Assembly: GCF_022557175.1 (NCBI RefSeq)
Contig: NZ_CP092915.1
Coordinates: 4,898,001-4,962,000 of the forward strand
DNA length: 64,000 bases
Reading direction: 5' to 3'
Source of the DNA: Mycolicibacterium sp. YH-1
Lineage (GTDB): Bacteria > Actinomycetota > Actinomycetes > Mycobacteriales > Mycobacteriaceae
Under the pieces are notes generated by a model, which was not told where the DNA came from, ran no database searches, and was given only the letters and a program-made list of their open reading frames with translations. The position numbers and the translations under genes are program-made. Below, one piece after another: positions 30,652 to 55,914 of the stretch (the stretch's first letter is position 1; each line of letters begins with the position of its first letter).

Positions 30652-31817
30652 TCAGCGAAGGAGCGCACGACTCATCACCACGCGTTGGATCTGGTTGGTG
30701 CCCTCGTATATCTGAGTGATCTTGGCGTCGCGCATCATGCGTTCGACGGGGAAGTCAGTGGTGTAGCCGGCACCGCCGAACAGCTGCACGGCATCGGTGG
30801 TGACCTCCATGGCGACATCGGAGGCGAAACACTTGCTCGCCGACGAGATGAACCCCAGATCGCCCTCCCCTCGCTCGGCCCGAGCGGCAGCGCTGTAGAC
30901 CATCAACCGCGCTGCCTCGACCTTCATCGCCATGTCCGCGAGCATGAATTGCACACCCTGGAAGTCGCTGATCGCCCTGCCGAATTGCCGACGGCCCTTG
31001 GTGTAGGCGATCGCAGCGTCAAGCGCTCCCTGGGCGATACCGACAGCTTGGGCGCCGATGGTGGCCCTGGTGTGGTCCAGCGTGGCCAGCGCGGTCTTGA
31101 AGCCCGTTCCCCGCGCACCGATGATCCGGTCTCCCGGGATGCGGCAGTTCTCGAAGTACAGCTCAGTGGTCGGCGATCCCTTGATTCCCATCTTGCGCTC
31201 CTCGGGCCCAACGGTGAATCCCTCGTCGTCGATGTGAACGGCGAACGCCGAAATACCGTTGGCACCCTCGTCGGGGTCGGTCACCGCCATCACCGTGTAC
31301 CAGGAGGACCTGCCACCGTGGGTGATCCACGCCTTAGAGCCGGTGAGGATCCAGTCATCGCCGTGCGACTTTGCCCGGGTCTTCATGCTGGCGGCGTCGC
31401 TTCCGGCCTCACGCTCGGACAGCGCGTACGAAGCCATCGCCCCATCGACGAGGTCGGCCAATATCCTCTTTTGAGCTCCTCGGATCCACGCAGGATCAAG
31501 CCCATGGTGCCCAGCTTGTTGACTATTGGAATCAGCGAAGCCGAGGCGTCGACGCGCGCCACCTCTTCGATGACGATGCAGACAGCCACCGAGTCTGCGC
31601 CCTGACCGCCGTACTCCTCGGGCACGTGCACTGCGTTGAAGCCCGAGGTGTTCAGCGCGTCGAGGGCCTCCTGCGGGAAGCGCGCGTTCTCATCGACGTC
31701 GAAAGCGTGTGGTGCGATGTGCCTCTCCGCCAGAGCGCGAATTGCTGAACGCAGGTCCTGATGTTCCTTCGGCAACTGGAACAGATCGAAGGTCGATCCG
31801 TTTGACGTGGTGCTCAT
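30652..31817 (-). pseudogene. Acyl-CoA dehydrogenase, frameshifted
   Basis: Both halves of a normal acyl-CoA dehydrogenase (about 388 residues) are present but in different frames. The N-terminal part (31817 down to about 31470) ends correctly at LGTMGLILRGSEELKR; the rest continues from ILADLVDGAMASYALSEREA in another frame to the C-terminus, with the FAD/substrate segment ITHGGRSSWYTVMAV and the catalytic-Glu loop QIYEGTNQIQRVV. Loss of one base in an AGAAGG-like run at about 31463-31470 would explain it. It is either a real inactivation or a sequencing error. It is last in the left operon, after the RibBA-like gene. Confidence 0.85.
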
Positions 31818-31854
31818 GGTCTCTTTCTCGCGTCTGAGTGTCTCGTAAGCGGGG

Positions 31855-32970
31855 TCACAGCAGGGCCGTCACAAGTTGTCGTAGTTCGCGTGTAACGCAG
31901 GGCGACGCGACCATCAGATCGCACGTTGCGGCAAGATCGTCGCCGCTGGTCCACTTGGGCAGAGTCTCCGCTGCAAAACCAAGCTGAGCGAGCATCGAGA
32001 CGATGCGTCCCTGCACGAGTTCTGCCTCCCGCACGGCGACCTTCGTCGCCGACGGCGGTTCGGCCCGCAGATAGACGATGACTCCGCCGTCGGTCGTGAT
32101 GCACTCACGGCACTTGTCGAACGTCAGTTGGCATTGGCAGTCGCACGCGAGAAGTGGGTCCCGGTGCGGACATTCGTTCAAGACGTACACCTTGGGGCTC
32201 GCGTCGGGGGTAGCGACGCCGATGTAGACCGTATGCCGTCCACCGGTCAGCCGGTCTTCGAAGTCGACTGCTCGGATAGCGCGTGCGGGGGCTTCGACCA
32301 CTCTCGACAGTGTCTGCCTTATCCTGTCGCCCCGTACGCCACCGTGGTACAGGCAGTAGTGAACGACGTCATCTACGTGCACCACCGGCAGTCCATTGGC
32401 ATGAGCGAAGGCATCGACCTCGTGCCCTCGAAGGACGTCGCCGTCATCGGCAAGCACTGCAGCGGTCAACCCCACCGGCGGGAGCCCGGCAATGCCGCAG
32501 AGGTCGACCCCCGCTTCGGCGCTACCCGGGTGTTCCAGTACCCCCCATCGAGCTGTCCGAACTGGGAGTAGGTGACCAGGCCGCACCAGATCCTCTGGCC
32601 GCGAACTCGCACTTGCCAAGACGCGCGCCGTGCGGGCTCGGTCGGTCGCACTGATGCCGGTACCGACTCCGCGCGCCGCGTCCACCGCGACCGCGAATGA
32701 CGCTGATACATCGTCATCCTCATCGTTACGTACCATAGCTGGCAGATCTAGTTGGTCTGCTCGACGTCCGGGCAGGGCCGCGCACAGCAGTCCAGAAGTG
32801 ACCCTGACCAACCACGCCGTCCAATGCGGTGTGGCATGAGCAGCCGCGATCAGCGCATCGGCCACGACCTGATCGCCAGTTCCGCTGACAACGAGCACCG
32901 GGTTGCCGCTGGCGAGCGCACCAGCCGCTCGTTCGACCGCTTTTCTAGCCGCGCATCCCTGGTCCATCAT
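31855..32970 (-). CDS. RibBA-like protein (DHBP synthase/GTP cyclohydrolase II fold) with eroded active sites
   Basis: A 371-residue protein with the two-domain layout of bifunctional RibBA. The N-terminal half follows DHBP synthase (VRVTSGLLCAALPG, GVGTGISATDRARTARVL at 101-118, RPGHLLPV at 130-137), but the acidic metal/substrate loop (usually DDEDRENEGD) is replaced by SGTGDQVVAD (29-38). The C-terminal half keeps the GTP cyclohydrolase II zinc cysteines (Cys267, Cys276, Cys278, in NECPHRDPLLACDCQCQL), but the catalytic RGHEGRGIG-type loop is RAEPPSATK. It sits beside a flavin reductase and an LLM monooxygenase, so a flavin-linked or repurposed role is possible. ATG overlaps the flavin-reductase stop. 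Confidence 0.75.
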   Translation of the reverse strand: MMDQGCAARKAVERAAGALASGNPVLVVSGTGDQVVADALIAAAHATPHWTAWLVRVTSGLLCAALPGRRADQLDLPAMVRNDEDDDVSASFAVAVDAARGVGTGISATDRARTARVLASASSRPEDLVRPGHLLPVRTARWGVLEHPGSAEAGVDLCGIAGLPPVGLTAAVLADDGDVLRGHEVDAFAHANGLPVVHVDDVVHYCLYHGGVRGDRIRQTLSRVVEAPARAIRAVDFEDRLTGGRHTVYIGVATPDASPKVYVLNECPHRDPLLACDCQCQLTFDKCRECITTDGGVIVYLRAEPPSATKVAVREAELVQGRIVSMLAQLGFAAETLPKWTSGDDLAATCDLMVASPCVTRELRQLVTALL

Positions 32971-33488
32971 GATTCACCACCCTGCGCAAGCACACGAAAG
33001 CGACTGTTGTGGAATACAAGCGGTGACGACTCACCATTGACCGCCGCGGCCTTGACCTCCAGGAGGACGACATCGTGATCTCCGGCGGGGATGGACGTAG
33101 AGATCTCGCAGTCGAGCCAGGCCGAGGCGTCGGCGAGCAATACTGCGTCGGATTCCGTGGCGAACCAGGAGACCCCGGCGAACCGGTCGGCATTCTTGGC
33201 TGCAATCTGGCGGCAGGTGGCCTCGTGCGTCGACGCCAGGATCGAGACTCCGAGGTGCCGGCCACTCGACAGCGATGGCCAGGTCGTCGACGTGTGCTGC
33301 ACACAGATCGACACCAGTGGGGGGTCCATGGATACCGGTGTGAACGAGGTGGCAACGATTCCGACTGGATGCCTTTCCCGCAGTGCGCATATCGCTGCGA
33401 CGCCGGTCGGATAACGTCCGTACAGTTTGCGCAGCGTCGATGAATCCCGGTCCGGGTCGCCGGAGTGCACCGGATCGAGCTTGGTCAT
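32967..33488 (-). CDS. Flavin reductase-like (FMN-binding split-barrel) protein
   Basis: A 173-residue member of the flavin reductase/HpaC-like family that supplies reduced FMN or FAD to two-component monooxygenases. Visible family marks are YPTGVAAICALRERHPVGIV, ATSFTPVSMDPPLVSICVQH, LGVSILASTHEATCRQIA and the Ala-Trp-Leu-Asp-Cys segment later on. Its probable partner is the LLM monooxygenase at 37250-38449 in the same direction. Start ATG 33488; an ATG three codons earlier is also possible. Its stop overlaps the RibBA-like ATG (ATGA). Confidence 0.85.
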   Translation of the reverse strand: MTKLDPVHSGDPDRDSSTLRKLYGRYPTGVAAICALRERHPVGIVATSFTPVSMDPPLVSICVQHTSTTWPSLSSGRHLGVSILASTHEATCRQIAAKNADRFAGVSWFATESDAVLLADASAWLDCEISTSIPAGDHDVVLLEVKAAAVNGESSPLVFHNSRFRVLAQGGES

Positions 33489-33619
33489 GGCGCGCACCGC
33501 AGCTCGATATGGCCTTGCGTGCGCGGACCTTGCGGCAGTGGCCTGGTCACCGGGCCAGCGCTGACGTGGCGCGAAATCGCTGGAGGACTCGGCATGTCGA
33601 TTCTCCGTTCTAGTGAATG

Positions 33620-33658
33620 TCAGGCACTGGTCATGACCTCGAGCCGGACCTCGTTCAT
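33620..33658 (-). pseudogene. Creatininase-family gene stub (first 12 codons only)
   Basis: Reads MNEVRLEVMTSA then stop, 13 bases after the acyl-CoA ligase stop. The intact creatininase gene (47263-48018) begins MNEIRVEYMTSA and lies 8 bases after the paralogous ligase. The matching sequence and position show this is the 5' scrap of a lost creatininase gene in the left operon copy. Confidence 0.7.
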
Positions 33659-33671
33659 CGCGTCAGCTACC

Positions 33672-35564
33672 TCAGATGCCGTCAAAGCGCGCCTGCCGGG
33701 CGATTTCACCCTGTTCGCCCGCGTCGTACATTTCGTTGGCGAGGTCGCTGAATGAGGCAAGGACAGCGGAGCGCCGGATGGTGCCCTTGAGCGTCAACTC
33801 TCCTTCCGCGACTGATAGCGCACGCGGCAGGACACGAAACTTCTTCAACTGCAGGGGCCGGGCTAGACCGGAGTTGACCTCGTTGATCCAGGCGGCGAGA
33901 GCGGCATCGCGGTCCCGCTCAGACATGCCCCGTGCCTTCTCGCTGGGACCGATGAGCACGGTCAGGTACTTCCGGCCCTCTCCGACGACGATGGCCTCCT
34001 CGATGAGCGAACTTGCCATGAGCTGCGTCTCGATCGGCTGCGGGCTGACGGTCTTGCCTCCGCTGGTCTTCAGAACGTCCTTGAGCCGGCCAACGATCTT
34101 CACTTCTCCGTCAGCGGCAATCTCGACCAGATCGCCAGTGCGATACCAGCCGTCTTCCGTCGCCGCCGCAGTCGCGTCGAGATCGTTCACGTAGCCGTCG
34201 AACACAGAAGGGGCGCTGAGTTGTAGCTCGCCTTCGTGAGAAATCCGTATGGCCCATCGAGGGTCGGGCATGCTCTTGCCGATCGTTCCGGGCGCTGGAA
34301 AAGCCCGGTCCCATTGGGCAATCACGGAGCCGCAGGTCTCCGTCGTTCCGTACAGTTCTCGAAGGTCCAGTCCCCACATCTGCCAGAGGGCGGCCACGTC
34401 GGCAGACATGCTGCCCGAGGCAGTCCAGGTGACCCTGATGCGGTCCATGCCCACTCGTGCACGAAATGGGAGGAACACATGCTTGACGCAGATGCCGTGG
34501 AGACGGTCAAGTAACCAAGGGATCTCATGCCCCCGCCAATGCCTTTCGCCGACCCTGCGGGCGACCTTCATCGCCATCGAGTATTCGAGACGGAAGACGA
34601 GGCCAGATTCGGACAACAGCTGCAGCAGCTCACTGGCGAGCTTCTCATGCATTCTCGGCGGCCAAAGAGCGGCTGTCGGCCGCACTCCGACAAGCGCTTC
34701 GAGGCGTTGATCCATGGTGCAATACGTGACGACAAGCCTCGTCATGATCGGAGCGAAGACACCGATCAGAGCCGGGGCCACATGCGACAGACCGAGGAAG
34801 GCCACCAGGTCGTGCTTGACCCTGCCGATGTCCGGGTAGGACATGGCGAACGCAAGCACCGAGTACTGGAGAGTGCGGTGCGTGTGAATCACACCTTTCG
34901 GCGCACCGGTGGATCCCGAGGTGTAGAACAGCGCCGCCGGCTGGTCGACGTCGCCGGCCTCGACGAGATTTGCAAACAGCGCAGGTTCAATCAGAGCCCT
35001 AGCTCGACCGATATGGCGCAGTTTGTCCCAGCTCACGGCTCGGACGGTTGGCGGAAAGTTCTCGGGTTCGGCATCGACGCAGACCGCCGCACGCAGCCGC
35101 GGGAGGTCGGCCGCCACGGAGACCACCTTGGCCACGTCGGCCGCGGTCTCTGCGAAGACGACCGTTGCCTCAGAAGTTTCGAGTGCGTGCTTGATCTCTG
35201 AGGCCGAACTCGTGGGATACACGCCCACTGGGACGCCGCCCACACTCAGGATCGACAGGGCCGCCACCACCCATTCCCTGCGGGTCGAGGACACAATGGC
35301 CACCCGATCGCCGGGTTCGGCGCCGAGCGCGTAGAGGCCCAGCGTTGCCTGCCGTACCTCCTCGAGGTATTCACTCCAGGTGGTCGGGCGCGCGGCGCCG
35401 TCGACCCAGCTACAAAACGCGACGGTGCCCCCTTCACGCTCGGCTCGGTCGCACAACATCTGGGCGAAGGTCCGATTCACCGCTTCGAATCCCGACGTGC
35501 TTGTCAGCACGGGCACCGTGGCGTCCCTGCCGGGCGGAGAAGTTGACGCTTTCGAGTTACCCAC
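33672..35564 (-). CDS. Long-chain acyl-CoA synthetase-type AMP-dependent ligase (left paralogue)
   Basis: ATP-dependent CoA ligase of 630 residues (FadD15/ACSBG-like branch). The adenylate motif YTSGSTGAPKGV is followed by THRTLQYSVLAFAMSYPDIG, the LYGTTETCGS motif, YRTGDLVEI, and the hinge/Lys region GRLKDVLKTSGGKTVSPQPI. It activates a carboxylate as its CoA thioester; the chain type is unknown. About three-quarters identical by eye to the ligase at 48027-49934. It sits after the two crotonase genes and is followed by the creatininase stub. Confidence 0.9.
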   Translation of the reverse strand: MGNSKASTSPPGRDATVPVLTSTSGFEAVNRTFAQMLCDRAEREGGTVAFCSWVDGAARPTTWSEYLEEVRQATLGLYALGAEPGDRVAIVSSTRREWVVAALSILSVGGVPVGVYPTSSASEIKHALETSEATVVFAETAADVAKVVSVAADLPRLRAAVCVDAEPENFPPTVRAVSWDKLRHIGRARALIEPALFANLVEAGDVDQPAALFYTSGSTGAPKGVIHTHRTLQYSVLAFAMSYPDIGRVKHDLVAFLGLSHVAPALIGVFAPIMTRLVVTYCTMDQRLEALVGVRPTAALWPPRMHEKLASELLQLLSESGLVFRLEYSMAMKVARRVGERHWRGHEIPWLLDRLHGICVKHVFLPFRARVGMDRIRVTWTASGSMSADVAALWQMWGLDLRELYGTTETCGSVIAQWDRAFPAPGTIGKSMPDPRWAIRISHEGELQLSAPSVFDGYVNDLDATAAATEDGWYRTGDLVEIAADGEVKIVGRLKDVLKTSGGKTVSPQPIETQLMASSLIEEAIVVGEGRKYLTVLIGPSEKARGMSERDRDAALAAWINEVNSGLARPLQLKKFRVLPRALSVAEGELTLKGTIRRSAVLASFSDLANEMYDAGEQGEIARQARFDGI

Positions 35565-35573
35565 GGGCTACGA

Positions 35574-36386
35574 CTATGCTGGACACGAATTCTCCTTGGT
35601 CGCGGACGCTCTTCTACCACTCCACTGTTCACGTAATTCGCGGGCAGTGGGATCATCGAAGTACTCAGCGGCTGCCATCAGCGTGCGTTGCAGGGAGATG
35701 TCGTCGCGCGCATCGTCTTGATCGTTGATGCTGCGCTTCAAAGCGCCGTACAGCACAGGCGCCTTCGCGCCGGCGCTGCGCGCGGTAGCGACCGCCGATT
35801 CGATCAACGCTTCGTGGTCTGTGGCAAGTTCGTCGACGAGGCCAATATCCAAGGCGTGCTGCGCATCAAAGAGTTCACCCGACAACACGATCCGCCGGGT
35901 GGCGCGGATACCGAGCATCCGGGATGCGCGCTGAAGGCCCTTGTCGGCGGGTAACAACCCATGATTGATCTCCGGAAAGCCGAACCGTGCCGAACCAACG
36001 GCCAGTACCGCGTCCGAGAAGAGCGCTATCTCCATGCCGCCACCGACACAGTGGCCGTTGATCGCACTGACCACCGGTCGAGGGTAGCCGTCGATGGCGA
36101 CCAGCAGCGCATGGAACTCCCGCATGCGGGCGTCAATGGCGTCCGCCGGTACCCCTTCGAGTTCCTTGATGTCGCCACCAGCGCTGAAGAACCGCTCGCC
36201 CCGGCCGGTGAGCACGATCGGCGGTGCGTCTCGCCTCTCCGTGAGTTCGGCGAACAGCACGGCTAGGTCGTGGATGATTTGGCGGTTCAGCGCATTTGCG
36301 GGCGGCCTGTCTAACGTGACGACCAGCACGCCATCGCGGTCGGCGGCGCTGAGGGTGGCTGACTGGCCGGGCTGCAGTTCTGTCAT
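35574..36386 (-). CDS. Enoyl-CoA hydratase (canonical catalytic residues)
   Basis: Crotonase-fold protein of 270 residues. The oxyanion loops are FSAGGDIKELEG and NGHCVGGGMEIAL. Both catalytic Glu positions are kept: Glu in GGGMEIAL and Glu in GFPEINHGLLPADKG. It is therefore the best candidate in the island for true 2-enoyl-CoA hydration. It lies three bases after the non-canonical crotonase and nine bases before the ligase, so it is part of the left operon; the right copy has the Liv transporter genes in this place. Confidence 0.9.
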   Translation of the reverse strand: MTELQPGQSATLSAADRDGVLVVTLDRPPANALNRQIIHDLAVLFAELTERRDAPPIVLTGRGERFFSAGGDIKELEGVPADAIDARMREFHALLVAIDGYPRPVVSAINGHCVGGGMEIALFSDAVLAVGSARFGFPEINHGLLPADKGLQRASRMLGIRATRRIVLSGELFDAQHALDIGLVDELATDHEALIESAVATARSAGAKAPVLYGALKRSINDQDDARDDISLQRTLMAAAEYFDDPTARELREQWSGRRASATKENSCPA

Positions 36387-36389
36387 GTG

Positions 36390-37253
36390 TCACCCGGCTG
36401 CGTTCGCCGGCCGAGGCCCTAGGACGGAGTGGGCTTCGCCCCGAGCAGATGGATACTCGGGCGGTCGGCCTTCGCGGAAGGCCTGCCGGGCCTCAAAATA
36501 GTCGGCGCTCGCGAAACCGATGACCTCCAGCGCGGCAGACAACTCGTGCTGGGGTAGAGCATTGGTGAGCCACCCGGTGTTCAGGGAACGCTTCGTCCAG
36601 CGAATCGCCTGTTGAGAACCTTGAGCTAGGTCGTCGGCGATGGACAGAGCGCGATCTAGCACCCTTTCCCTGGGCTCGGTGAGACTCACCAAGCCGATTC
36701 GTTCAGCCTCCAAGCCCGTCAAGCTCGCCGAAGTCAACTGGTAGTACTTCGTCTTGGCCATTCCGACGAGCAGTGGCCAGATGAGGGAGGAGTGGTCACC
36801 GGCGACCACACCGACGCGGGTATGACCGTCGCGAAGCAGGGCATCCTCCGCGGCCACGCTGATGTCCGCCAGCAGGGCCATCGACAACCCCCAGCCCACG
36901 GCGGGACCGTTGATTGCCGAGATGAGGGGTTTGTCCATGTTGAGGATGGCCGCGATCCGTCGGCGCTCCCACTCCATGAGTGCCACCGCTTCGTCCAGCG
37001 TCGGTTCCGGCTGGCGCACGTCCATACCCGTGCAGAAGCCACGACCGGCACCCGTGATGACGGCGACCCGCGTTTGGGGGTCTCGGTCGACGTCCACCCA
37101 GATGTCCGACAGATACTCGAACATCGGCATCGTCAAGGCGTTGAGCCGGTCGGGTTGGTTGATGGTGATGAGCAGAACCCCGTTTGGCCTGCGTTCGACC
37201 AACACTTCCTCCGGGTAACGACTGAAAAGGTCATTCTCGGCCAGCCTGCTCAT
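36390..37253 (-). CDS. Crotonase-fold protein lacking both hydratase glutamates (left paralogue)
   Basis: A 287-residue crotonase homologue. The CoA/oxyanion loop [15 protein letters not shown] is present. In [20 protein letters not shown] the first catalytic Glu is replaced (GLSMAL for GCELAM), and in [20 protein letters not shown] the second Glu is His. It probably carries out another crotonase reaction (hydrolysis, C-C cleavage, isomerisation), not hydration. Near-identical layout to 54790-55656. Its ATG overlaps the LLM stop (ATGA). Confidence 0.85.
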   Translation of the reverse strand: MSRLAENDLFSRYPEEVLVERRPNGVLLITINQPDRLNALTMPMFEYLSDIWVDVDRDPQTRVAVITGAGRGFCTGMDVRQPEPTLDEAVALMEWERRRIAAILNMDKPLISAINGPAVGWGLSMALLADISVAAEDALLRDGHTRVGVVAGDHSSLIWPLLVGMAKTKYYQLTSASLTGLEAERIGLVSLTEPRERVLDRALSIADDLAQGSQQAIRWTKRSLNTGWLTNALPQHELSAALEVIGFASADYFEARQAFREGRPPEYPSARGEAHSVLGPRPANAAG

Positions 37254-38449
37254 CGCGCATCTCCTACTGTGGCGACCTGCATGGCTGAATTCCCTTGTGT
37301 AATCGTCTTTTCAAACGATTCAAGTTCCGCGTAGTGGGCAGGTCGCGCAGCACGGATGTCGGTCAGGACAGCTTCGGCGGGGCGGACCACGGCCCGCGGG
37401 TTCTTGAACTTCGGGATGACGTACTTGCCGAACAGCTCGATGGATTTCATCAGTTCCCTGTGGGGAAGCCCATCGATTCGCATGACGATGGCATCCGCGC
37501 CCAGATCTACGAACCGCTGCACCTGCGCCACACAGTCGTCGGGATCTCCGACGATGAATCCCGAGGAGTCCTCGAACATGTATCGCTCATCGTCGAAGTC
37601 GATGTTCTTGACTGCGCCCATGTACTGATAGTCGGCAGACAGCTTGGATAAGCGGTCGTACGCGTCTGTCGAGAGCCCGACGGTCTCCTTGAGATGCCGC
37701 GCCCACTTGAAGGCTTCGTCGCGGGTCTCGGCACAGTGCATTCCGCCGCCAACCGCGACGAGCTTCTCCGCTTGTAGCGGATAGGAGTGCGTCGCGCCAT
37801 CGAGGGCGTCGTCATAGATGCGCAACATGCTCTCTAGGAAGTCAAAGCCGAGATAGAAGCCACCGACGATGGCTCCGATGCCCAACTCTGCCGCCTTCCG
37901 AACGGAGTCTGGGCTGCCGGCGGCCATAGAGATGGGTGGATACGGCAGTTGAATCCCCCTGGGGACCAGGCTGCGTGGCGGAATCTTGTAGTGCTCGCCG
38001 ACGTATGAGAACACGTCATTGTGAAGCGCGCGGCGGATCACCTCCAAGCCTTCGATGAGCTGCGCCTTGTTCTCGGTTGGGTCGACCTCGAAGGCCCGCA
38101 ACGCAAGTGTCGTGTTCCCCCGCCCGACCCCGAGTTCCACTCGACCGTTGGACAGGATGTCTTCAGTCGCCAACCGCTCCGCTACGCGAAGAGCGTGGTT
38201 GATCCGCGTGGGCAGGAGCGTGACCAGGTGGATGAACCGAATGCGCGTGGTCAGAGCCATGAGGTAGGGATAGATGACCTCTGGCGCGGAGGTCGTCGCT
38301 GTGCCGATTGCGACGTGCTGCTCGGATGTTCCGAATGCGTCAAATCCCACCTCCTCCGCGAGCAGGACTTCGTCCACGAGTTCCCGGTAGCGATGCTCGT
38401 GGGTATGCCCCGGAAGCGTCTCGCCTTCGCTCATGAATATGAATCGCAT
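37250..38449 (-). CDS. LLM-class flavin-dependent monooxygenase (left copy, intact)
   Basis: Luciferase-like TIM-barrel enzyme of 399 residues: MRFIFMSEGETLPGHTHEHR at the start, FGTSEQHVAIGTATTSAPEV, GRVELGVGRGNTTLALRAF, and PPISMAAGSPDSVRKAAELG. The length and the EQH motif fit FMN-dependent monooxygenases of the bacterial luciferase group, which need a separate reductase; one lies at 32967-33488. Likely the committed oxygenation step of the left operon and its first gene. Start ATG 38449 was chosen over an upstream in-frame ATG because the matching remnant at 55864 begins at the same point. Confidence 0.88.
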   Translation of the reverse strand: MRFIFMSEGETLPGHTHEHRYRELVDEVLLAEEVGFDAFGTSEQHVAIGTATTSAPEVIYPYLMALTTRIRFIHLVTLLPTRINHALRVAERLATEDILSNGRVELGVGRGNTTLALRAFEVDPTENKAQLIEGLEVIRRALHNDVFSYVGEHYKIPPRSLVPRGIQLPYPPISMAAGSPDSVRKAAELGIGAIVGGFYLGFDFLESMLRIYDDALDGATHSYPLQAEKLVAVGGGMHCAETRDEAFKWARHLKETVGLSTDAYDRLSKLSADYQYMGAVKNIDFDDERYMFEDSSGFIVGDPDDCVAQVQRFVDLGADAIVMRIDGLPHRELMKSIELFGKYVIPKFKNPRAVVRPAEAVLTDIRAARPAHYAELESFEKTITQGNSAMQVATVGDAR

Positions 38450-38483
38450 GGTCACACCACTTTCCACTAGGTGAATGCTCCCT

Positions 38484-38513
38484 AACCTAGAGGCGAATGG
38501 CATCGTTTGTCAA
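38484..38513 (-). promoter_or_regulatory. Promoter of the left catabolic operon
   Basis: Minus-strand TTGACA, 18-base spacer, TAGGTT (followed by A). The -10 lies 35 bases before the LLM ATG. The same TTGACA and TAGGTTA elements stand upstream of the LLM remnant at 55886-55914 with a 17-base spacer, which supports both. Confidence 0.6.
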
Positions 38514-38645
38514 CGCCCCCTTGCATCTCGAATCACCAGCGAAAGATCGCCAATAGATTGGCCCTGGCCTGCACATATTGGCGTTTGGGCTGAGCTTGCA
38601 CCGCCAAGCCGACGACCAAGGCACTACCGACGAGTGGTGAAAAAC

Positions 38646-38661
38646 ATTAATCACGATTAAT
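38646..38661. promoter_or_regulatory. Palindromic operator, site 1 (perfect)
   Basis: ATTAATC-AC-GATTAAT, a perfect 7-2-7 palindrome between the divergent LLM operon and the TetR gene, about 100 bases from the TetR ATG. Three further sites of the same pattern occur in the island. Confidence 0.6.
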
Positions 38662-38762
38662 CTCGACGGGATGGCACACCCGGCTTCCGCAGGTCCAACT
38701 CCGCCGATGGGGACAGTCCTCGCCTCGGAGGCGACGACCGACGCTGGCTATCGTGGTTAGCC

Positions 38763-44204: not shown

Positions 44205-44216
44205 GACGGAGTGACG

Positions 44217-45551: not shown

Positions 45552-45556
45552 AGCCT

Positions 45557-47179: not shown

Positions 47180-47262
47180 GGATCCTCCAGTTGAAGCAAC
47201 GCTTCCTGCCGAAGCGCTGAAATCGGTTTCTAGTAGAACGATTGGGCGGGGCCATCACGTTC

Positions 47263-48018: not shown

Positions 48019-48026
48019 TGCGGCAC

Positions 48027-49934
48027 CTACTTGCGTTCTGTCCTGGCGAAGCGAGCTTGGCGGACGATCTCGTCCTGCTCGCCGGCGTCGTACATGTCGT
48101 CGACGAAATCGGCAAAGGAGGCAAGGATGTTGGAACGCCGGATGGTGGCCTTTGGCGTCAACTCCCCTGCCGCCGGTGACAGGGCACGCGGCAGGATCCG
48201 GTAGGTTTTCAGCTGTAGTGGGCGGGCGAGTTCGGAGTTGACCTCGTCGATCCAGCCGGTTAGAGCATCGTCCCGTTCGTGCGGAGTCATCGCTCGCGCC
48301 ACGTCGCTGACGCATAGCAGCACCGCGAGGTACTTCCGACCTTCGCCCACGACGATCGCCTCATCAATGAGCGGGCTCGCCTTTAGCCGTACCTCTATCG
48401 GCTGCGGGCTAACCATCTTGCCACCGCTGGTCTTGAGGACATCCTTCATTCGCCCGATGATCTTCACCTCGCCGTCGCGGTTCAGCTCGACCAGATCGCC
48501 TGTCCGGTACCACCCGTCCTCCATGACGGAGGCTGTCGCCTCAGGATTGCGCCAGTAACCTTTGAACAAGCATGGGCTGCGCAGCTGTAGCTCTCCTTCA
48601 GCAGAGACACGGATGGCCCACCGGGGATCGGGCATGCACTTGCCGATGGTCCCTGGCGCCGGAAACGCACGGTCCCATTGGGCGAGCACGGAGCCACAAG
48701 TTTCAGTCGTACCGAAAAGCTCGCGAAGATCGAGGCCCCACATGTGCCAAAGCGCGGCCACGTCGGGGGTCATGCTTCCGGACGCAGTCCAGCTGACCTT
48801 GATGCGGTCGATGCCGACCGTCGCCCGCAATGGTAGGAACACGCTTTTCATGCAGAAGCCGTAAAGCGCGTTGAGGTGCTTCGGCACCTGACGCCCCCGC
48901 CAGCGTAGAACGCTGATCCTTCGGGCGACCCTCATTGCAATCGAATATGCAAAGCGGAAGGCTCTCCCAGACTCGGAAAGCGCCTGCAGCATTTCGCTGG
49001 CGAGCTTCTCGTGCATCCTCGGCGGCCATACGACAGCAGTTGGCCGCACCCCGATGAGCGCTTCGCGACGCTGATCCATGGTGCAGTACGTGACGACGAG
49101 CCTCGTCATTATCGGCGCGAAGACTCCGATCAGCGCCGGCGCGACGTGTGATAGTCCGAGGAATCCAACGAGATCGTGCCTAGTCCTGCCGATCTCGGGG
49201 TAGGACATGGCGAAAGCAAGCACCGAGTACTGGAGTGTGCGGTGTGTGTGCATCACACCCTTTGGGGCGCCCGTAGAGCCTGACGTATAAAACAGCGCAG
49301 CCAGCTGGTCGATGTCGCCGGCTTCGACAAGAACGGTAAACAACTCCGGCTCCGCCAGGGCTCGCGCCCTACCGACAGCACGCAATGACGCCCAATGCAC
49401 CGCCTTCACGGTCGGAGGCAGGTCCGCTGGTTCGGTATCGAACCCGATGGTCGCACACAAGTGCGGCAGCCCGGGGGCGGCCGCTGCCACCTTGGCGATG
49501 TCAGACGCACTCTCGGCGAAAATAGCTGTTGCCCCGCTACTTTCGAGCGCTTGCTCAACCTCGGCGCCTGAGCTTGTGGGATAGACTCCAACAGGGACGC
49601 CGCCCATGCTCAGGATCGCGAGGGCCGCCACTACCCACTCCCGGCGGGTAGAGGACATGATGGCCACCCGGTCGCCCGGCGCCACCCCGAGATTATGGAG
49701 GCCCAGTGTGGTCTCCCGCACTTCGTCTAGGTACTCGCTCCAACTGGTCGGGCGGGCAGCACCACCTGCCCAACTGCAGAAAGCGACCGTGTCCGGCTCG
49801 CGCTCGGCGCGGTCGCACAACATCTGCGCGAAGGTGCGATGCACCGCCTCGAACCCTGACACGCTGTGCAACACGGGGATCCCGTCCTTGCCGCAACCAG
49901 GCGAACTCGTGGAAACAACTCTCTCCATCTCCAT
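48027..49934 (-). CDS. Long-chain acyl-CoA synthetase-type AMP-dependent ligase (right paralogue)
   Basis: CoA ligase of 635 residues, paralogue of 33672-35564. It has YTSGSTGAPKGVMHTHRTLQ, LFGTTETCGSVLAQWDRAF, WYRTGDLVELNRDGEVKIIG and LKTSGGKMVSPQPIEVRL, so all catalytic elements are kept. The two differ mainly at the N-terminus and in the C-terminal domain, which suggests different substrate preference. It starts two bases after the stop of the substrate-binding protein gene and is followed by the creatininase. The ATG two codons later is an alternative start. Confidence 0.9.
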   Translation of the reverse strand: MEMERVVSTSSPGCGKDGIPVLHSVSGFEAVHRTFAQMLCDRAEREPDTVAFCSWAGGAARPTSWSEYLDEVRETTLGLHNLGVAPGDRVAIMSSTRREWVVAALAILSMGGVPVGVYPTSSGAEVEQALESSGATAIFAESASDIAKVAAAAPGLPHLCATIGFDTEPADLPPTVKAVHWASLRAVGRARALAEPELFTVLVEAGDIDQLAALFYTSGSTGAPKGVMHTHRTLQYSVLAFAMSYPEIGRTRHDLVGFLGLSHVAPALIGVFAPIMTRLVVTYCTMDQRREALIGVRPTAVVWPPRMHEKLASEMLQALSESGRAFRFAYSIAMRVARRISVLRWRGRQVPKHLNALYGFCMKSVFLPLRATVGIDRIKVSWTASGSMTPDVAALWHMWGLDLRELFGTTETCGSVLAQWDRAFPAPGTIGKCMPDPRWAIRVSAEGELQLRSPCLFKGYWRNPEATASVMEDGWYRTGDLVELNRDGEVKIIGRMKDVLKTSGGKMVSPQPIEVRLKASPLIDEAIVVGEGRKYLAVLLCVSDVARAMTPHERDDALTGWIDEVNSELARPLQLKTYRILPRALSPAAGELTPKATIRRSNILASFADFVDDMYDAGEQDEIVRQARFARTERK

Positions 49935-49936
49935 GG

Positions 49937-51211
49937 TCAGCCCAATTCCTCAGCCAGATCGCTAATCTCGACGCCCGTGTAGCGCTTGACTACCTGCCAC
50001 TTCCCGTCGACCACCTGGTAAACACCGTAGTCGGGTGCTGCCGTGTTCGTCGAGCTGAAATCGACTGGGCCACTGGCACCTTGATAGTCGATCCTCTCAT
50101 TCTTGGCCAATAGTTCAAGGCCTTCATCCAGGGAGAACACCGGCGTGCCACCGGAATCAGTCACGTTGTGAAGATTGTCGGCAATCGCTGTGCCTGTGGC
50201 CGCGCCACCGGCCGCCATCGCCAAGAGTCCCGAAACGATCGCATCGTAGGCCATCGCAGCCGTCGGCTGCTGAGCGATGGCCATGCCCTTCTCTTCGCCA
50301 TACTCCTCGATCAACACATCACGCATCCCCGCGACGGCCGGTGAGTCTGCTGCGAAAGCGGACTGCCCGTAAGCACCTTCAAGGTATTGGGCACCGACCT
50401 CGTTGAGCAGCACGGGGTAGGTCAACTCGGCGATAAACGACCATTTGCCAGGAATTCCCAGCCGCGCCCACTCGCGCACGATCGGTATCGCGGGCTCGAC
50501 GGAGCCGGCGAGGAACACCATATCGGGCTTGGGCTCAAAGGCACTGCGAACCTCCGGCAGGTAGGAGCTCTGCCCCCCGTTGTACGCCACCTTTGCCACC
50601 ACCGTGCCACCAAGCTTCGTGTAGTAGTCCTCCAACCAGCTCGACGTGCTTCGCGCCGAGTCGGAGTTCTCGTAGAGTATCGACAGCGTCTTGAAACCGT
50701 TGTCCCAGATGTTCTTTGCGACCGCCAGCCCATCGAAGGTATCCGGGCCGATTGTACGAAAGGTATAGGGGTTGGCCTGGTCGTCGTACTCCACGATGCC
50801 CGCATACGGCGATGCGATAGCAACCTCGCTGCGTTCTGCCTGACTGAGCGTCGCCATGAACGTCGAGGAGGTCGGACCCACGATGAATTGCGCGTTGTCT
50901 TTGTTGATGAGCTTGGTGACTGCGCGGACTCCATCCTCGGCGTTGAACTTCTCGTCCTCGCTGACCACCTCGAACGTGATCCCGTTGATGCCGCCGCGTT
51001 CGTTGACATGGTTCACCACTGCTCGGGTGATCGAATCGACAGCCCCGCCGAAGACGGCCGCCTCGCCCGATAGCGGCGCGGCCACACCGATCACGGAGGT
51101 TCCGTCGGAGGCCCCTCCACCGTTGTTACCGCAACCTGTGAGCACCGCCCCGGTCGCCATAACGACGCACGCAACTGCCACCTTGTGCGTTGTTGCTCTG
51201 AAAATTGTCAT
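49937..51211 (-). CDS. ABC transporter substrate-binding lipoprotein (LivK/amide type)
   Basis: Type I periplasmic-binding-protein fold of 424 residues. The N-terminal signal ends in a lipobox LTGC with Cys27 as the lipidated residue, followed by a Gly/Asn linker. Family marks: IGVAAPLSGEAAVFGGAVDS, NERGGINGITFEVVSEDEKF and the central FIVGPTSSTFMATLSQAERS. It captures the transported compound outside the membrane; Liv-type receptors take branched amino acids, amides, or aromatic and fatty carboxylates. AGGAGATC precedes the ATG. It follows the four other transporter genes. Confidence 0.92.
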   Translation of the reverse strand: MTIFRATTHKVAVACVVMATGAVLTGCGNNGGGASDGTSVIGVAAPLSGEAAVFGGAVDSITRAVVNHVNERGGINGITFEVVSEDEKFNAEDGVRAVTKLINKDNAQFIVGPTSSTFMATLSQAERSEVAIASPYAGIVEYDDQANPYTFRTIGPDTFDGLAVAKNIWDNGFKTLSILYENSDSARSTSSWLEDYYTKLGGTVVAKVAYNGGQSSYLPEVRSAFEPKPDMVFLAGSVEPAIPIVREWARLGIPGKWSFIAELTYPVLLNEVGAQYLEGAYGQSAFAADSPAVAGMRDVLIEEYGEEKGMAIAQQPTAAMAYDAIVSGLLAMAAGGAATGTAIADNLHNVTDSGGTPVFSLDEGLELLAKNERIDYQGASGPVDFSSTNTAAPDYGVYQVVDGKWQVVKRYTGVEISDLAEELG

Positions 51212-51324
51212 AGTTCAGATCTCCTAAATGGCATTTGCGTTGGGCTGGTGGATCTTTCCTTGCTGAAGCTGGGTGAGCCAGACCTGCAACTAGCTCTACG
51301 CGTGCGGGTGAGCATGCGTGGCAC

Positions 51325-52044
51325 CTATGCCTGTGAGATTCGAGCACCCAGGAACATCTCGGCGAAGCCTGGATCGGCGAGCAGTTGCGGCCCGTTTGCC
51401 TCGTGATGGACCTGGCCGGATTCCATGAGAAATACGCGTCCGCACAGCGGCAGGATTTGACTGGGATGCTCCTCAATGACCCATAGGACGCCGGTCCCGC
51501 TGCGTTCGATGACACAGATCTGCTCGATGAGCGAATCGACAATCTGGGGTGCTAGGCCGGTAGTCGGTTCGTCGAGGATCAAGAGCCTTGGCCGCATGAG
51601 CAGTGAGGAGGCGATCGCGAGCTGCTGGCGTTGCCCGCCTGAAAGCGTTCCAGCTCGCTGCTTCCGGCGCTCGGCTAGGATCGGGAACAGTTCCAAAACC
51701 TCAGCCATGCGATCATGAGGTAGTCGCATCGCGCGGGTCACAACTTCCAGATTGTCTTCGACTGAGAGTGCGCCAAAGACGTTTCGTAACTGAGGCGTAT
51801 AGCCAAGTCCACCGCGGGCCCGCTCGCGAGGGGACATCCCGTCGAGTGTCTCTCCATCGAGTTTGACGCTCCCACTGCGCGCATCCACAACCCCGGCGAT
51901 GGTCTGCACGAGGGTCGTCTTGCCGGCGCCATTAGGGCCGATGATGGCTGTGATGGCCCCTTCGTCAGCAGCAAGTGAAATACCACGGATGATGTTGTTT
52001 CGACCGTAGCCGCTGGTCAGGTTCTCGACGTCAAGTAGTGGCAC
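51325..52044 (-). CDS. livF: Branched-chain-type ABC transporter ATPase
   Basis: A 239-residue ATPase. Walker A is GPNGAGKTT (36-44), the signature is LSGGQRQQLAIA, Walker B is RLLILDEPT, and the switch His is in EEHPSQIL. LivF grouping follows from length and order. It overlaps livG by 14 bases; 113 bases without a gene separate it from the binding-protein gene. The symbol denotes family, not proven leucine transport. Confidence 0.9.
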   Translation of the reverse strand: MPLLDVENLTSGYGRNNIIRGISLAADEGAITAIIGPNGAGKTTLVQTIAGVVDARSGSVKLDGETLDGMSPRERARGGLGYTPQLRNVFGALSVEDNLEVVTRAMRLPHDRMAEVLELFPILAERRKQRAGTLSGGQRQQLAIASSLLMRPRLLILDEPTTGLAPQIVDSLIEQICVIERSGTGVLWVIEEHPSQILPLCGRVFLMESGQVHHEANGPQLLADPGFAEMFLGARISQA

Positions 52045-52816
52045 GGCGGACTCCCAAATAGGTTTCGATCACTAGGGGGTCTCGGATGACCTCCGCCGGT
52101 GGACCGTTGGCGATGACATGACCGTCGTGCATGACGTACAGCGCATCGGAGATCGCGTTGATGAAGGACATGTTGTGCTCGATGACGAGCACCGTCACGT
52201 CCTCGGCGTCGCGGAGTTGACGCACGGTCTTCGATAGACGGTGCTGATCGTCGGGGTTGAGCCCCGAGGAAGGTTCATCGAGCATCAACAGCGACGGCGG
52301 TTCCATGAGCAGACGGGCGATCTGGAGCAGGCGCCCCTGGCCGATCGACAGATCCCCCGCCCGGGTGTTGGCCAGTTCGGCCAACCCCATGCGATCAAGC
52401 AGTTTCCATGCACGGTCGACCAACACCTGTTCACTCGCTGACACCTTGCGCGGCGAGGTGAATAGCTGCGATAGTCGCTCGCCTGGCACTGTGCGCGCGG
52501 CGGTGAGCAGATTCTGCATGACCGACATGCCAGTGAAATCCGCTGTGTTCTGAAATGTGCGCTTCAGACCCATCCGCGCAAGTTGATACGTCGGAGCACC
52601 CGTGACGATGCGACCGTTGAACACCACTGTTCCAGCATCTGGCTTGAGGAAACCGGACACCGCGTTGAACAGCGTCGTCTTACCAGAGCCGTTTGGCCCG
52701 ATGAGACCGGTGACTTTGCTCCGTCCAACCGCCATATTGACACCATCGAGTGCTCGGAGCTGACCAAAACTCTTCACGACGCCGCGCACTTCGAGTAACG
52801 GATCTGCTGCGTCCAT
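52031..52816 (-). CDS. livG: Branched-chain-type ABC transporter ATPase
   Basis: A 261-residue ATPase. Walker A is GPNGSGKTT, the signature is LSIGQGRLLQIARLL (variant LSxGQ), and Walker B is SLLMLDEPSSGLNP. A GMSVMQNLLTAAR segment typical of LivG precedes the signature. The ATG at 52816 is favoured over GTG 52819 by AGGAGG six bases upstream. It overlaps the livM stop by one base. Confidence 0.9.
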   Translation of the reverse strand: MDAADPLLEVRGVVKSFGQLRALDGVNMAVGRSKVTGLIGPNGSGKTTLFNAVSGFLKPDAGTVVFNGRIVTGAPTYQLARMGLKRTFQNTADFTGMSVMQNLLTAARTVPGERLSQLFTSPRKVSASEQVLVDRAWKLLDRMGLAELANTRAGDLSIGQGRLLQIARLLMEPPSLLMLDEPSSGLNPDDQHRLSKTVRQLRDAEDVTVLVIEHNMSFINAISDALYVMHDGHVIANGPPAEVIRDPLVIETYLGVRRATT

Positions 52817-53805
52817 CACCGACCTCCTGCCGTAGAAGCGGCCAGCACAGCAGGTGCCACGAAGGCTGTGCCGGGCGACGGGTAGATGGCCAGTCGGGGC
52901 TTAAAGAGGCCTCCCGGCCAGAAAAGCAGGATCACGATGAGGACCAAACCCTGTAGCGCGTCCTGAAGACTGGCCATCAGCTCCGACGAAATGAAGCCCA
53001 CCTGAACGTATGTGAGGCCTTCGCGCAGCCCCAGCAGAACGACCGCACCAAGGACCGCACCGGCATTGCTGCCCATTCCGCCGATGATCAGAGCAATGAA
53101 GACCGTGAACGTGATGTTCACGTTGAAGAATGCCGGAGTGAGGATCGACAGGTACCACACGTACATGACCCCGGCCAGGCCCATGAAGAACGCGGCAAAA
53201 ACAAACGCCTTGAGCTTCACGGCGTAGACGTTCACCCCCAGCGAACGTGCAACCGCTTCGTTTTGGTTGATTGCGAGCAGGCTTCGGCCGAACGCCGACC
53301 GCGTGACACGCCGGAAGAGGAGGAAGGTCACACCCAGGACGGCCACAACAATCGCTGCAATGAACAACCCCTGCGCTCGCCCCGGGATGAAATCAACGCT
53401 CGGCACCGGCGCGTCGAGTAGCCCGCGCGCTCCATTAGCGATCGCCGGCTGGTTGATGAACAGCTGACGAGTCATCTCGGCAAGCGCAAGCGCGACCACA
53501 GCCAGGTAGTCACCACCAACCCTCAGCAGGCCGCTTCCGACAATGAGTGCGAGCAGCGCTGATGCAAGACCACCGATGATTGCCCCAGACCACCACGGTA
53601 AGCCCAGTCCGAGAATATATGTGTATGAACCAGTTTGAGCCGGCATGACAGTCAGCGCGTAGGCGTAGGCTCCGACACCGAAAAACGCCGCGACACCGAA
53701 GTTCACCATCCCGCCAACGCCGAACTGGAGGTTCAACGCTAGGGCTGCGACGGCGTAGATCCCCATAAGAGTGATCAGTCCGCCAAGAATCAGCAGAGTA
53801 CTCAT
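52816..53805 (-). CDS. livM: Branched-chain-type ABC transporter permease
   Basis: Integral membrane permease of 329 residues with about nine helices. The LivM motif LNLQFGVGGMVNFGVAAFFGVG is near residue 24, and SLGVNVYAVKLKAFVFAAFF is the ATPase-contacting EAA-like loop. ATG overlaps the livH stop (ATGA). It pairs with LivH to form the translocation path. Confidence 0.92.
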   Translation of the reverse strand: MSTLLILGGLITLMGIYAVAALALNLQFGVGGMVNFGVAAFFGVGAYAYALTVMPAQTGSYTYILGLGLPWWSGAIIGGLASALLALIVGSGLLRVGGDYLAVVALALAEMTRQLFINQPAIANGARGLLDAPVPSVDFIPGRAQGLFIAAIVVAVLGVTFLLFRRVTRSAFGRSLLAINQNEAVARSLGVNVYAVKLKAFVFAAFFMGLAGVMYVWYLSILTPAFFNVNITFTVFIALIIGGMGSNAGAVLGAVVLLGLREGLTYVQVGFISSELMASLQDALQGLVLIVILLFWPGGLFKPRLAIYPSPGTAFVAPAVLAASTAGGR

Positions 53806-54692
53806 GCGACGCGCTCCTTCGGACCGCTGAAGAGGCCCTCAGGCCGAAAGAAGACGACCAATGCGATGACCGCGAACACCACCATCTGGGTGTATTCGGA
53901 CGGGATGACGAGGGTTGCGAGACTTGATGTGAGACCAACCAGGACGGCTGCGAGCATCACGCCATAGATGCTGCCGAGTCCACCGATAATGGCCGCGGCG
54001 GAGATGATCAGCACCTGATCCCAGCCGAGCTCAGGGTAGATGCGTGCGGTAAAGGCAATGAGCGTTCCCGCCAGCGCAGCCAACGCGCTCGCGACCGCCC
54101 ATGTGACGTACTGCAGATAGGAGGTGTTGACACCGCGAATCTGAGCCAGCTCCTGGTTGTTGGCCATCGCGCGCAATGCCCGGCCGCTGTAGGAGTTCGA
54201 CAGCCAAAAGTGCAGTGCCACAACCACCAGAGTCGCGATGCCGATGACAGCGATCTGATCAACGCTGGCCACTGCGGTCTCACCGATGCGCAAGGTCTCT
54301 TGCAGAGGTACGTTGAGCGTCTTCACCCCGTACCCGGTGAACACCTCGACCATTGCGTGAATGAAGAACGCAAGACCGACTGATGCGATCATGGGGATAT
54401 GGTGCGGACGTCCGCGCATCGGCCAGAAGATGAGCCGAGCCGATACGACGCCCGCCACCGTCGTGACCACGATCGCCGCGAGACAGGAGGCTACCCAGTG
54501 CATCCCCAGCAGCACATTGAAGCCGTACGCACTGAACCCGCTGAGGACGATGAGTTGGGGATGCGCGATATTGAGGAAGCCCTCCACCCGGCGCACGAGT
54601 TCGAAGCCCACCGTGGCCAGCAACAGAACCGCACCGCTGACCAGGCCAGCAGCAACGACGACTAGCACGAATCCCCCTTCATGCCCTTGCAC
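53802..54692 (-). CDS. livH: Branched-chain-type ABC transporter permease
   Basis: Integral membrane permease of up to 296 residues. Typical LivH segments are VEGFLNIAHPQLIVLSGFSA and RALRAMANNQELAQIRGVNT. The start is uncertain: GTG 54692 gives the full length, but GTG 54668 has a better ribosome site (AAGGGGG) and a family-like N-terminus. It is the first transporter gene after the right crotonase; the 97 bases between hold no gene. Confidence 0.88.
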   Translation of the reverse strand: MQGHEGGFVLVVVAAGLVSGAVLLLATVGFELVRRVEGFLNIAHPQLIVLSGFSAYGFNVLLGMHWVASCLAAIVVTTVAGVVSARLIFWPMRGRPHHIPMIASVGLAFFIHAMVEVFTGYGVKTLNVPLQETLRIGETAVASVDQIAVIGIATLVVVALHFWLSNSYSGRALRAMANNQELAQIRGVNTSYLQYVTWAVASALAALAGTLIAFTARIYPELGWDQVLIISAAAIIGGLGSIYGVMLAAVLVGLTSSLATLVIPSEYTQMVVFAVIALVVFFRPEGLFSGPKERVA

Positions 54693-54789
54693 GCCGAGAT
54701 CTATTGCTGTTACCGCACTCTCGCAGGCAACGGGAGGCTGGATCGTCGAAGTTCCGGGCGCCCTTGCCGATTTCAGGTTCTGTCATGAT

Positions 54790-55656
54790 TCACCGTGCAA
54801 CTTCTTGCGTTGCCGGAGAGCTAGGGACGAGGTGGCCATCGCCACGTGCAGAGGGGAATTCGGCCGGCCGACCCTCGCGGAAGGCTTGTCGGGCCTCGCG
54901 GTAGTCCGCGCTCGCGAAACCTAGGGTCTCCAACGCCGCGGACAACTCCTGCTGAGGAAGGGCATTGGTCAGCCAACCTGAGTTCAGCGATCGCTTTGTC
55001 CAGCGGATTGCCTGCTGTGAGCCCTGCGCAAGATCGTCGGCGATCGCCAAGGCGCGATCGAGCACCGCCTCCTTCGGCTCGGTGACGCTCACCAGACCCA
55101 TACGCTCAGCCTCAGCGCCAGTCAGGCTTGCTGAAGTTAGTTGGTAATACTTAGCTTTGGCCATGCCGACGAGCAGCGGCCAAATCAGGGAGGAGTGGTC
55201 GCCCGCGACCACTCCTACACGAGTGTGGCCGTCCCGAAGCAAAGCGTCCTCAGCAGCGACACTGATGTCCGCGAGCAACGCCATTGACAGACCCCAGCCC
55301 ACCGCGGGCCCGTTGATCGCCGAGATGAGGGGCTTATCCATGTTCAGGAGCGCCGTGATCCGTCGCCGCTCACCCTCCATGAGCGCGATCGCGTCATCCA
55401 GGGTGGGGTCTGGTTGGCTCACATCCATGCCTGTGCAGAACCCGCGGCCGGCGCCAGTGATAACAGCGACCCGCGTTTGGGGGTCACGGTCGACATCAAG
55501 CCAAATTTCGGTCATATGCTCGAACATCGGCATCGTGAGGGAGTTCAGTCGCTCGGGACGATTGAGGGTGATGAGGAGTACCCCGTTTGGTTTGCGCTCG
55601 ATCAAGATCTCCTTCGGGTAGCGGCTAAAGACGTCATCCGCGGCCAGTGTGTTCAT
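54790..55656 (-). CDS. Crotonase-fold protein lacking both hydratase glutamates (right paralogue)
   Basis: A 288-residue paralogue of 36390-37253, roughly 85% identical by eye. It keeps [40 protein letters not shown] and [20 protein letters not shown], so the same two catalytic Glu positions are replaced in both copies. This shared pattern in two diverged genes argues for a selected, non-hydratase activity. AGGAGAAGCGCG precedes the ATG, as in the left copy (AGGAGATGCGCG). Its ATG overlaps the stop of the LLM remnant. Confidence 0.87.
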
Positions 55657-55864
55657 CGCGCTTCTCCTACCTCGACACAATTTTCGGTTGTTTCCTGCTG
55701 GGACACTGCTTTCGAACGCTTCGAACTCGACGTAGCAGGCGGCCGCTCGGCGCGAACACCATCCAGAATCGCCGCTGAGGTGCGCCCCGGTAACGGCGCT
55801 CATGCGTATGCGCTGGTGTCGTCTCGACTTCGCCCATATAGGTGAATCGCCCGTCGCATCCCAT
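55653..55864 (-). pseudogene. LLM monooxygenase remnant, interior deleted
   Basis: Read leftward it starts RFTYMGEVETTPAHTHERRY, matching residues 2-22 of the intact LLM enzyme (RFIFMSEGETLPGHTHEHRY). It then jumps to AILDGVRAERPPA and, after a frameshift, YVEFEAFESSV, matching the intact C-terminus (AVLTDIRAARPAHYAELESF). It finishes VGEAR-stop against VGDAR-stop, still overlapping the crotonase ATG. About 340 residues are missing. Confidence 0.8.
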
Positions 55865-55885
55865 CGGCCTCTGTGAATGCGCATT

Positions 55886-55914
55886 AACCTATGGCCCGAG
55901 TGTGATCCTGTCAA
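55886..55914 (-). promoter_or_regulatory. Promoter of the right catabolic operon
   Basis: Minus-strand TTGACA, 17-base spacer, TAGGTT(A), homologous to 38484-38513. With the LLM reading frame dead, transcripts from here would serve the crotonase, Liv, ligase and creatininase genes. Confidence 0.55.

Follow-up and report, generated by a model that had tools for sequence, protein, structure and literature searches.

The window analysed here, meaning the whole stretch of 64,000 nucleotides between bases 4,898,001 and 4,962,000 of the single-contig 7.27 Mb genome of Mycolicibacterium sp. YH-1, carries two incomplete copies of one predicted catabolic operon, whose genes include a luciferase-like monooxygenase (LLM), the crotonase ech1, the hydratase ech2, an acyl-coenzyme A (acyl-CoA) ligase and a creatininase-family hydrolase. 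The left operon is transcribed leftward in the order LLM, ech1, ech2, ligase, creatininase stub, flavin reductase, RibBA-like protein and an acyl-CoA dehydrogenase in two frames (30652–38452). The right operon (45557–55850) has the order LLM remnant, ech1, ech2 remnant, LivHMGFK, ligase, creatininase and second ligase (lig2). TetR, IclR, E1 and E2 lie between the two. Open reading frame (ORF) scans, domain scans and alignment reproduce the gene order and coordinates of both blocks given by the initial annotation of this DNA. Positions are those of the window, L numbers denote fetched stretches of relatives, and G numbers denote genomes.

30652–31817, minus strand: left acyl-CoA dehydrogenase, two frames (31383–31817 and 30652–31461)
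31855–32970, minus strand: left RibBA-like protein (PF00926; PF00925 weak, below its cut-off)
32967–33497, minus strand: left flavin reductase, intact (PF01613)
33620–33658, minus strand: left creatininase stub, 12 codons followed by TGA
33672–35564, minus strand: left acyl-CoA ligase, FadD11-like, intact (PF00501 and PF23562)
35561–35600, minus strand: ech2/ligase junction, possible remnant of a livH start
35574–36386, minus strand: left hydratase ech2, intact (PF00378; 57–79% to actinobacterial relatives)
36390–37253, minus strand: left crotonase ech1, PRK07327-like, intact
37250–38452, minus strand: left LLM, intact (PF00296)
38763–39362, plus strand: TetR-family regulator (PF00440)
40348–41088, plus strand: IclR-family regulator (PF01614, PF09339)
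41868–44204, plus strand: E1, pyruvate-dehydrogenase-E1-like
44211–45365, plus strand: E2, lipoyl acyltransferase
45557–47179, minus strand: right second acyl-CoA ligase lig2, intact (PF00501; 76% to Nocardia fusca and N. carnea)
47263–48018, minus strand: right creatininase-family hydrolase, intact (PF02633)
48027–49934, minus strand: right acyl-CoA ligase, intact
49937–54692, minus strand: right Liv uptake system, LivHMGFK (domain scan)
49937–51211, minus strand: right livK
51325–52044, minus strand: right livF
52031–52819, minus strand: right livG
52816–53805, minus strand: right livM
53802–54692, minus strand: right livH
54693–54789, minus strand: right ech2 remnant, start fused to C-terminal part (shuffle test)
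54790–55656, minus strand: right crotonase ech1, intact
55657–55850, minus strand: right LLM remnant, both ends kept, about 1 kb of the middle gone

Pairwise alignment of the two blocks bears out the shared order LLM, crotonase, ligase, creatininase as that of homologous operons. At E 1e-3 three DNA matches are common to both: the ligase with the creatininase start, ech1, and the LLM start. The ligases share 73% of amino acids and 74% of nucleotides over 1,917 nt, the nucleotide match continuing into the start of the creatininase gene, and the ech1 copies share 85% and 78%. These are the only two genes intact in both copies. The ratio of nonsynonymous to synonymous divergence (dN/dS) between left and right is 0.158 for the ligase and 0.082 for ech1, near the values between orthologues; the ratios come from pairwise counting with dS above 1 and are hence rough. 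Judged by them, both retained duplicates are under constraint.

The remnants were compared with shuffled sequences. The 12-codon stub that had been read in the left copy is real, aligning with the start of the intact right creatininase at a score reached by 0/1000 shuffles; downstream of it, further creatininase sequence does not rise above shuffles (173/1000). Equally real is the deleted LLM of the right copy. Its 5′ part matches the LLMs of seven relatives in tblastn (E 1e-5 to 2.5e-4; 0/1000 shuffles), and its 3′ part matches weakly (E 0.04–0.34), yet again at 0/1000 shuffles. The score of the right ech2 remnant is reached by 1/1000 shuffles against the L016 gene and by 15/1000 against the left copy. 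At the left ech2/ligase junction a livH start remnant may tentatively be recognised from a local alignment (0/1000 shuffles) over a stretch that is short and was picked after looking. The left acyl-CoA dehydrogenase appears broken by a frameshift, unless this is a sequencing error; by the coordinates of the matches the gene is in one frame in L019, L022 and L049, and two open paralogues (86% and 79%) lie elsewhere in the genome. For the left RibBA-like protein the nearest solved structure is the RibBA 4i14.

To define the ancestral operon, relatives were collected. With both ligases as queries, 18 loci were found in reference genomes. The ligase occurs in 16/297 and 21/396 same-genus genomes, two samples that overlap, and in 4/397 genomes of the order, G000 being counted each time; the pair of operon halves was found in G000 only among the 396. 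After L027–L042, L092 and L094–L096 were dropped as repeats of genomes, the set comprised 23 distinct actinobacterial loci, three Bradyrhizobium loci being left out of this gene count and of the tree tests below. A gene was counted as present if the match covered at least 60%, and by this rule the two-frame creatininase of M. litorale and the two-piece LLM of L046 count as present.

Relatives with one full ancestral operon, which the initial annotation had proposed to look for, do exist. LLM, ech1, ech2, creatininase and flavin reductase stand together in one operon in all 23 of 23; the ligase belongs to it in 19, RibBA in 16, Liv in 6, lig2 of the window's type in 6 and the dehydrogenase in 3, and a ligase of another kind occupies the lig2 place in 9. 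The fuller order in relatives is LLM-ech1-ech2-[LivHMGFK]-ligase-creatininase-flavin reductase-RibBA-[second ligase]. Neither window copy holds the five core genes, the left being without the creatininase and the right without three, and jointly they hold all five. Because those genes are together in every relative, both window copies stand out as exceptional partial operons. Where relatives carry Liv, it lies between ech2 and ligase, matching the right copy (ech2 remnant, Liv, ligase). Scars of Liv loss are seen in the clade of the Liv-bearing relatives: L013 retains livH residues 4–44 and, by eye, a livK end, and L043 and L023 have apparent livK ends, also by eye.

Several features of the relatives were noted in passing. 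An MFS transporter gene is near the operon in 12/23 loci (L017–L022, L044–L049), within the stretches fetched, and LivHMGFK is inside it in 6/23 (L009, L010, L012, L014, L016, L093); none has both and five have neither. In L019 the MFS gene sits behind its own operator pair. The creatininase of M. litorale, the nearest named relative of the left copy, is split between two frames close to a run of G (L011, 11850–12589), either a real loss or a sequencing error. Bradyrhizobium (L024–L026) carries the operon in diverged form; close by in L025 are a LivK-like protein, a molybdenum hydroxylase and conjugation genes.

The promoters of the two copies had also been called homologous, and the alignment agrees: in both, TTGACA is followed after 17 or 18 bases by TAGGTTA and then by a 16-bp operator. 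Both window copies and 25/25 relatives have the TTGACA box together with a -10 box that overlaps an inverted repeat of 16 bp; the three Bradyrhizobium among these show a variant of the -10. Six operator sites were located.

38471–38486, minus strand: left promoter-proximal operator, 19.8 bits
38646–38661, no strand assigned: left distal operator, ATTAATCACGATTAAT, 12.2 bits
39969–39984, no strand assigned: distal operator of the third pair, 12.2 bits
40152–40167, plus strand: proximal operator of the third pair, before iclR, 14.6 bits
55873–55888, minus strand: right promoter-proximal operator, 24.1 bits
56051–56066, no strand assigned: right distal operator, 17.2 bits

A matrix made from 20 proximal sites of relatives, with the window excluded and L023, L049 and Bradyrhizobium left out, ranks exactly these six sites first in the window. 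They form three pairs, spaced 175 bp (left), 178 bp (right) and 183 bp (iclR). Upstream of LLM such a pair, with one operator on the -10 box and the other upstream, is present in 16/23 relatives (L009–L019, L022, L023, L043, L049, L093) at 152–182 bp, mostly 174–182 bp, and absent from L020, L021 and L044–L048. That the spacing is nearly fixed is a hint of DNA looping. The pattern RTTAATNNNNATTMAY, written after seeing the window's sites, occurs exactly at four places in the genome, all at this locus, and with at most one mismatch at 11 places, five of them here. The TetR gene at 38763 has a homologue in the stretch of 23/23 relatives, no TetR gene was seen beside the right unit, and the left-hand regulator is the natural candidate to control all three promoters. 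At the third operator pair no MFS remnant was found. The operators at lone ligases and MFS genes of relatives were scored with an earlier matrix, which included one distal site matching no relative.

The ligase tree contains 29 rows and the crotonase tree 27, with in-frame stops read as X (ech1 of L024 and L047, ech2 of L048). In both trees the left gene falls inside a ten-row clade (100/99) that includes M. litorale and the wolinskyi/peregrinum group, and the right gene falls outside it. Forcing left and right together costs 71.7 log-likelihood units for the ligase and 39.4 for the crotonase, with p values of 6.4e-7 and 6.0e-4 in the approximately unbiased (AU) test. In a concatenation of six genes, with lone ligases excluded, the left copy joins M. 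litorale (99/96), and the right copy adjoins the ten-row clade from outside. With 15 database ligases added to the ligase comparison, the left and right ligases still stand apart. The phylogeny that the initial annotation had wanted for dating a duplication thus rejects a clade of left plus right and gives no support to a duplication in this genome. What stands of its phrase "duplicate operons" is that one ancestral operon lies behind both blocks. Nor do the genes fall in unrelated clades, which it had named as the mark of independent assembly: family, order and promoter are the same. On these trees the copies are two lineages of one operon and not the products of a recent duplication.

The E1–E2 pair goes with the left copy. 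E1 and E2 are each sister to their M. litorale counterparts at 100/100, and E1–E2 identity peaks with M. litorale in 11/12 sixths. A joining point by recombination inside E1–E2 was considered and dropped, as these sixths and both trees favour M. litorale and leave no clear breakpoint. Because the tree placements differ, the left operon and E1–E2 share one history and the right operon another. Nearest to the right ligase is a protein at 99%, then others at 86% and 82%, and its nearest named relative, also at 82%, is a [Mycobacterium] appelbergii protein on a 449,757-base contig. An LLM matching at 86%, named Mycobacterium sp. 21AC1, is likewise on a 449,757-base contig, which suggests, without proof, that an intact right-type operon exists there. 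Ligases 99% like each half are present in other assemblies.

Both operons lie inside a segment with the features of a genomic island.

27156–56459, no strand assigned: genomic island, 29.3 kb, low GC, with an empty site in G090
28982–29137, minus strand: 156-bp fragment of the C-terminal end of a flavin adenine dinucleotide (FAD) monooxygenase, 86% to 56482–56637

In the relative G090, blastn matches to window positions 27155 and 56460 are only 35 bp apart (22146–27155 to L129 4905–9844, and 56460–60178 to L129 9880–13592). In the same-genus samples G090 does not figure among the ligase-bearing genomes. The GC content is 0.61–0.63 in the operon blocks and 0.67–0.69 in the flanks, so that an empty site, in this one genome, and a composition differing from the flanks are both at hand. 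Near both edges of the insert there is a 156-bp direct repeat, in which 28982–29137 copies the end of the intact FAD-monooxygenase gene at 56482–56637; no third copy was found in the genome at E 1e-5. The repeat is plausibly a footprint of the block's arrival.

Just within the left edge lies an ORF of 580 residues (27160–28902) with no Pfam match, an internal repeat (27722–28009 and 28076–28363, 84%) and a tail rich in lysine, alanine and aspartate. A sigma-70-like factor (29160–30050) adjoins the left operon, and its region gives a 538-bp match at 71% also downstream of the M. litorale operon. To the right of 56 kb, the window has no match longer than 150 bp with the M. litorale stretches L057, L011 and L058.

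We regard it as probable that this is an acquired composite locus, whose two xenologous operons decayed in complementary fashion until a single split regulon was left. For the narrower proposal, that two separately inherited lineages met in one island and were cut, under a single TetR and with no duplication, to mutually dependent half-operons, our judgement is evenly balanced. Two operon lineages, one M. litorale-like and one of a separate clade, would have come to flank a single E1–E2 pair within the island, with transfer, we infer, as the source of the second. Redundancy would then have allowed each copy to shed genes kept by the other, and a gene lost once would have held the other copy in place. 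The left copy would have lost the creatininase and presumably lig2 and Liv; the right copy LLM and ech2 and presumably flavin reductase, RibBA and a TetR of its own. The remainder would be one pathway in two transcription units. A genome search covering LLM and creatininase found the next-best copy at 37% in each case, and because these two lost genes have no other close copy, the cell would need both halves.

Several observations weigh against the composite. The losses are complementary and the union nearly complete, and the initial claim that each copy lost what the other retains stands for the lost genes generally; it does not stand for the acyl-CoA dehydrogenase, intact in neither copy. 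With nine units, three lost on the left and four on the right, non-overlap arises by chance in 15/126 or 12% of cases; for this reason the pattern is consistent with selection without proving it, and since non-overlap by itself is not rare, the weight of the complementarity comes from the conservation in relatives. Remnants of flavin reductase and RibBA are absent between the right creatininase and lig2 (233/300 and 280/300 shuffles reach the score), and the right copy's loss of these genes is accordingly drawn from the relatives. Among the operators, one site (24.1 bits) beats every maximum from 100 random 64-kb sequences (best scores: median 11.0, 95% point 16.5, maximum 20.3) and three beat the 95% point; the sites at 14.6, 12.2 and 12.2 bits do not, and because these three are unremarkable singly, the evidence is carried by the pairing. 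For the first sixth of E1, M. litorale is not the closest match. A Pfam scan of the insert's ORFs, small ones aside, showed no integrase or transposase. A deletion in G090 could yield the same picture as an empty site, which rests on one genome because close relatives of the FAD monooxygenase are rare (at the cut-off used, only G000 and G090 of 248 genomes).

Other histories can be set against the same data. A recent duplication of one operon within this genome, followed by complementary degeneration, would explain why the copies agree in gene order, in promoter and in the spacing of operators. Since a left-plus-right clade is rejected (p 6e-7 and 6e-4), and since grouping with M. litorale is seen for the left operon, E1 and E2 but not for the right operon, we consider it very improbable; only a wrong model or gene conversion could save it. 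An older duplication, preceding the radiation of the left clade, with both copies inherited here and one lost in other species, fits the shape of the tree, and the ligase duplicates with one-sided loss in L020, L021 and L044–L048 provide a parallel. It is unlikely all the same: none of the 20 other ligase-bearing genomes among the 396 carries both lineages, the two ligases of G234 and G377 are from other lineages, and the block lies within an insert.

The halves might instead act on different substrates, with the right unit and its uptake system, two ligases and hydrolase feeding another pathway, so that the complementarity is only apparent. Such a division would agree with the 27% difference between the retained ligases, both constrained, and with the lack of the lig2 type in the left clade, where another ligase mostly occupies that place. 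The paired operators common to both units, and the joint presence of LLM, ech2, creatininase and flavin reductase in 23/23 relatives, make it doubtful. That the locus is an artefact of assembly or sequencing is scarcely credible, given a genome in a single contig, copies that differ by 15–27% in protein, and the ligases 99% like each half in other assemblies, although the dehydrogenase frameshift could be of that origin.

The predicted genes (LLM, reductase, RibBA-like protein, crotonases, ligases, hydrolase, E1/E2 and Liv or MFS) suggest a catabolic pathway that depends on CoA and includes an oxygenase step, all of whose chemistry we infer from them. TetR would repress both units and the iclR promoter through the paired operators. 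With substrate present, LivHMGFK from the right unit would import an acid, and the ligases of both halves would form its CoA ester. The left LLM, with flavin reductase and a flavin pool fed by RibBA, would oxygenate the ester, the right creatininase-family hydrolase would open an amide-type bond, the crotonases would hydrate or cleave, and E1–E2 would process the 2-oxo acid product. An amide- or lactam-bearing substrate is suggested by the creatininase family alone. A 6-oxocamphor-hydrolase type for ech1 was rejected, those chains being far down the list and EchA15 closest. LLMs elsewhere are described as Baeyer–Villiger enzymes thought to require a flavin reductase (PMC12239570). The LLM of the pdc cluster of Caenibius tardaugens, a two-component type II Baeyer–Villiger enzyme, resembles the present one, by description, in its LLM fold and its need for a flavin reductase; it differs in that here the reductase gene is in the operon (PMC12239570).

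Among comparable systems, the operon family itself (Mycolicibacterium, Nocardia, Rhodococcoides and diverged Bradyrhizobium) has the same genes, order, promoter and operator, but all 23 actinobacterial members compared keep the core five in one operon where the present locus divides them between two. The literature gave no paper treating the TetR-LLM-crotonase-ligase-creatininase operon by title or abstract start. In the group of L020, L021 and L044–L048 the ligase is doubled, as an operon gene and a lone gene under its own operator; of these seven genomes four have lost the operon ligase, with scars left in L044 and L046, while two retain both copies and the last has the operon copy alone. 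The M. canariasense/MBM group within it (L020, L021, L044–L047) resembles our locus in the second ligase under its own operator and in an operon ligase lost or remnant in 4/6, and differs in that a single gene, not half an operon, is concerned.

Duplication-degeneration-complementation is the subfunctionalisation of duplicate genes. The present locus shares with it two copies, complementary losses and a nearly complete union, and differs in that whole operons are involved and the copies are old separate lineages; the AU rejection speaks against an origin by duplication within the lineage, short of an ancient one. Among the titles listed for complementary loss in paired operons none matched, and absence from print is not claimed. 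The locus catches, with remnants still readable, the trimming of redundant operons to one set after two versions meet, and suggests that complementary loss need not begin with duplication. It offers a pair of putatively interdependent transcription units open to testing, and draws attention to an operon that carries its own regulator and occurs in mycobacteria, nocardias and rhodococci.

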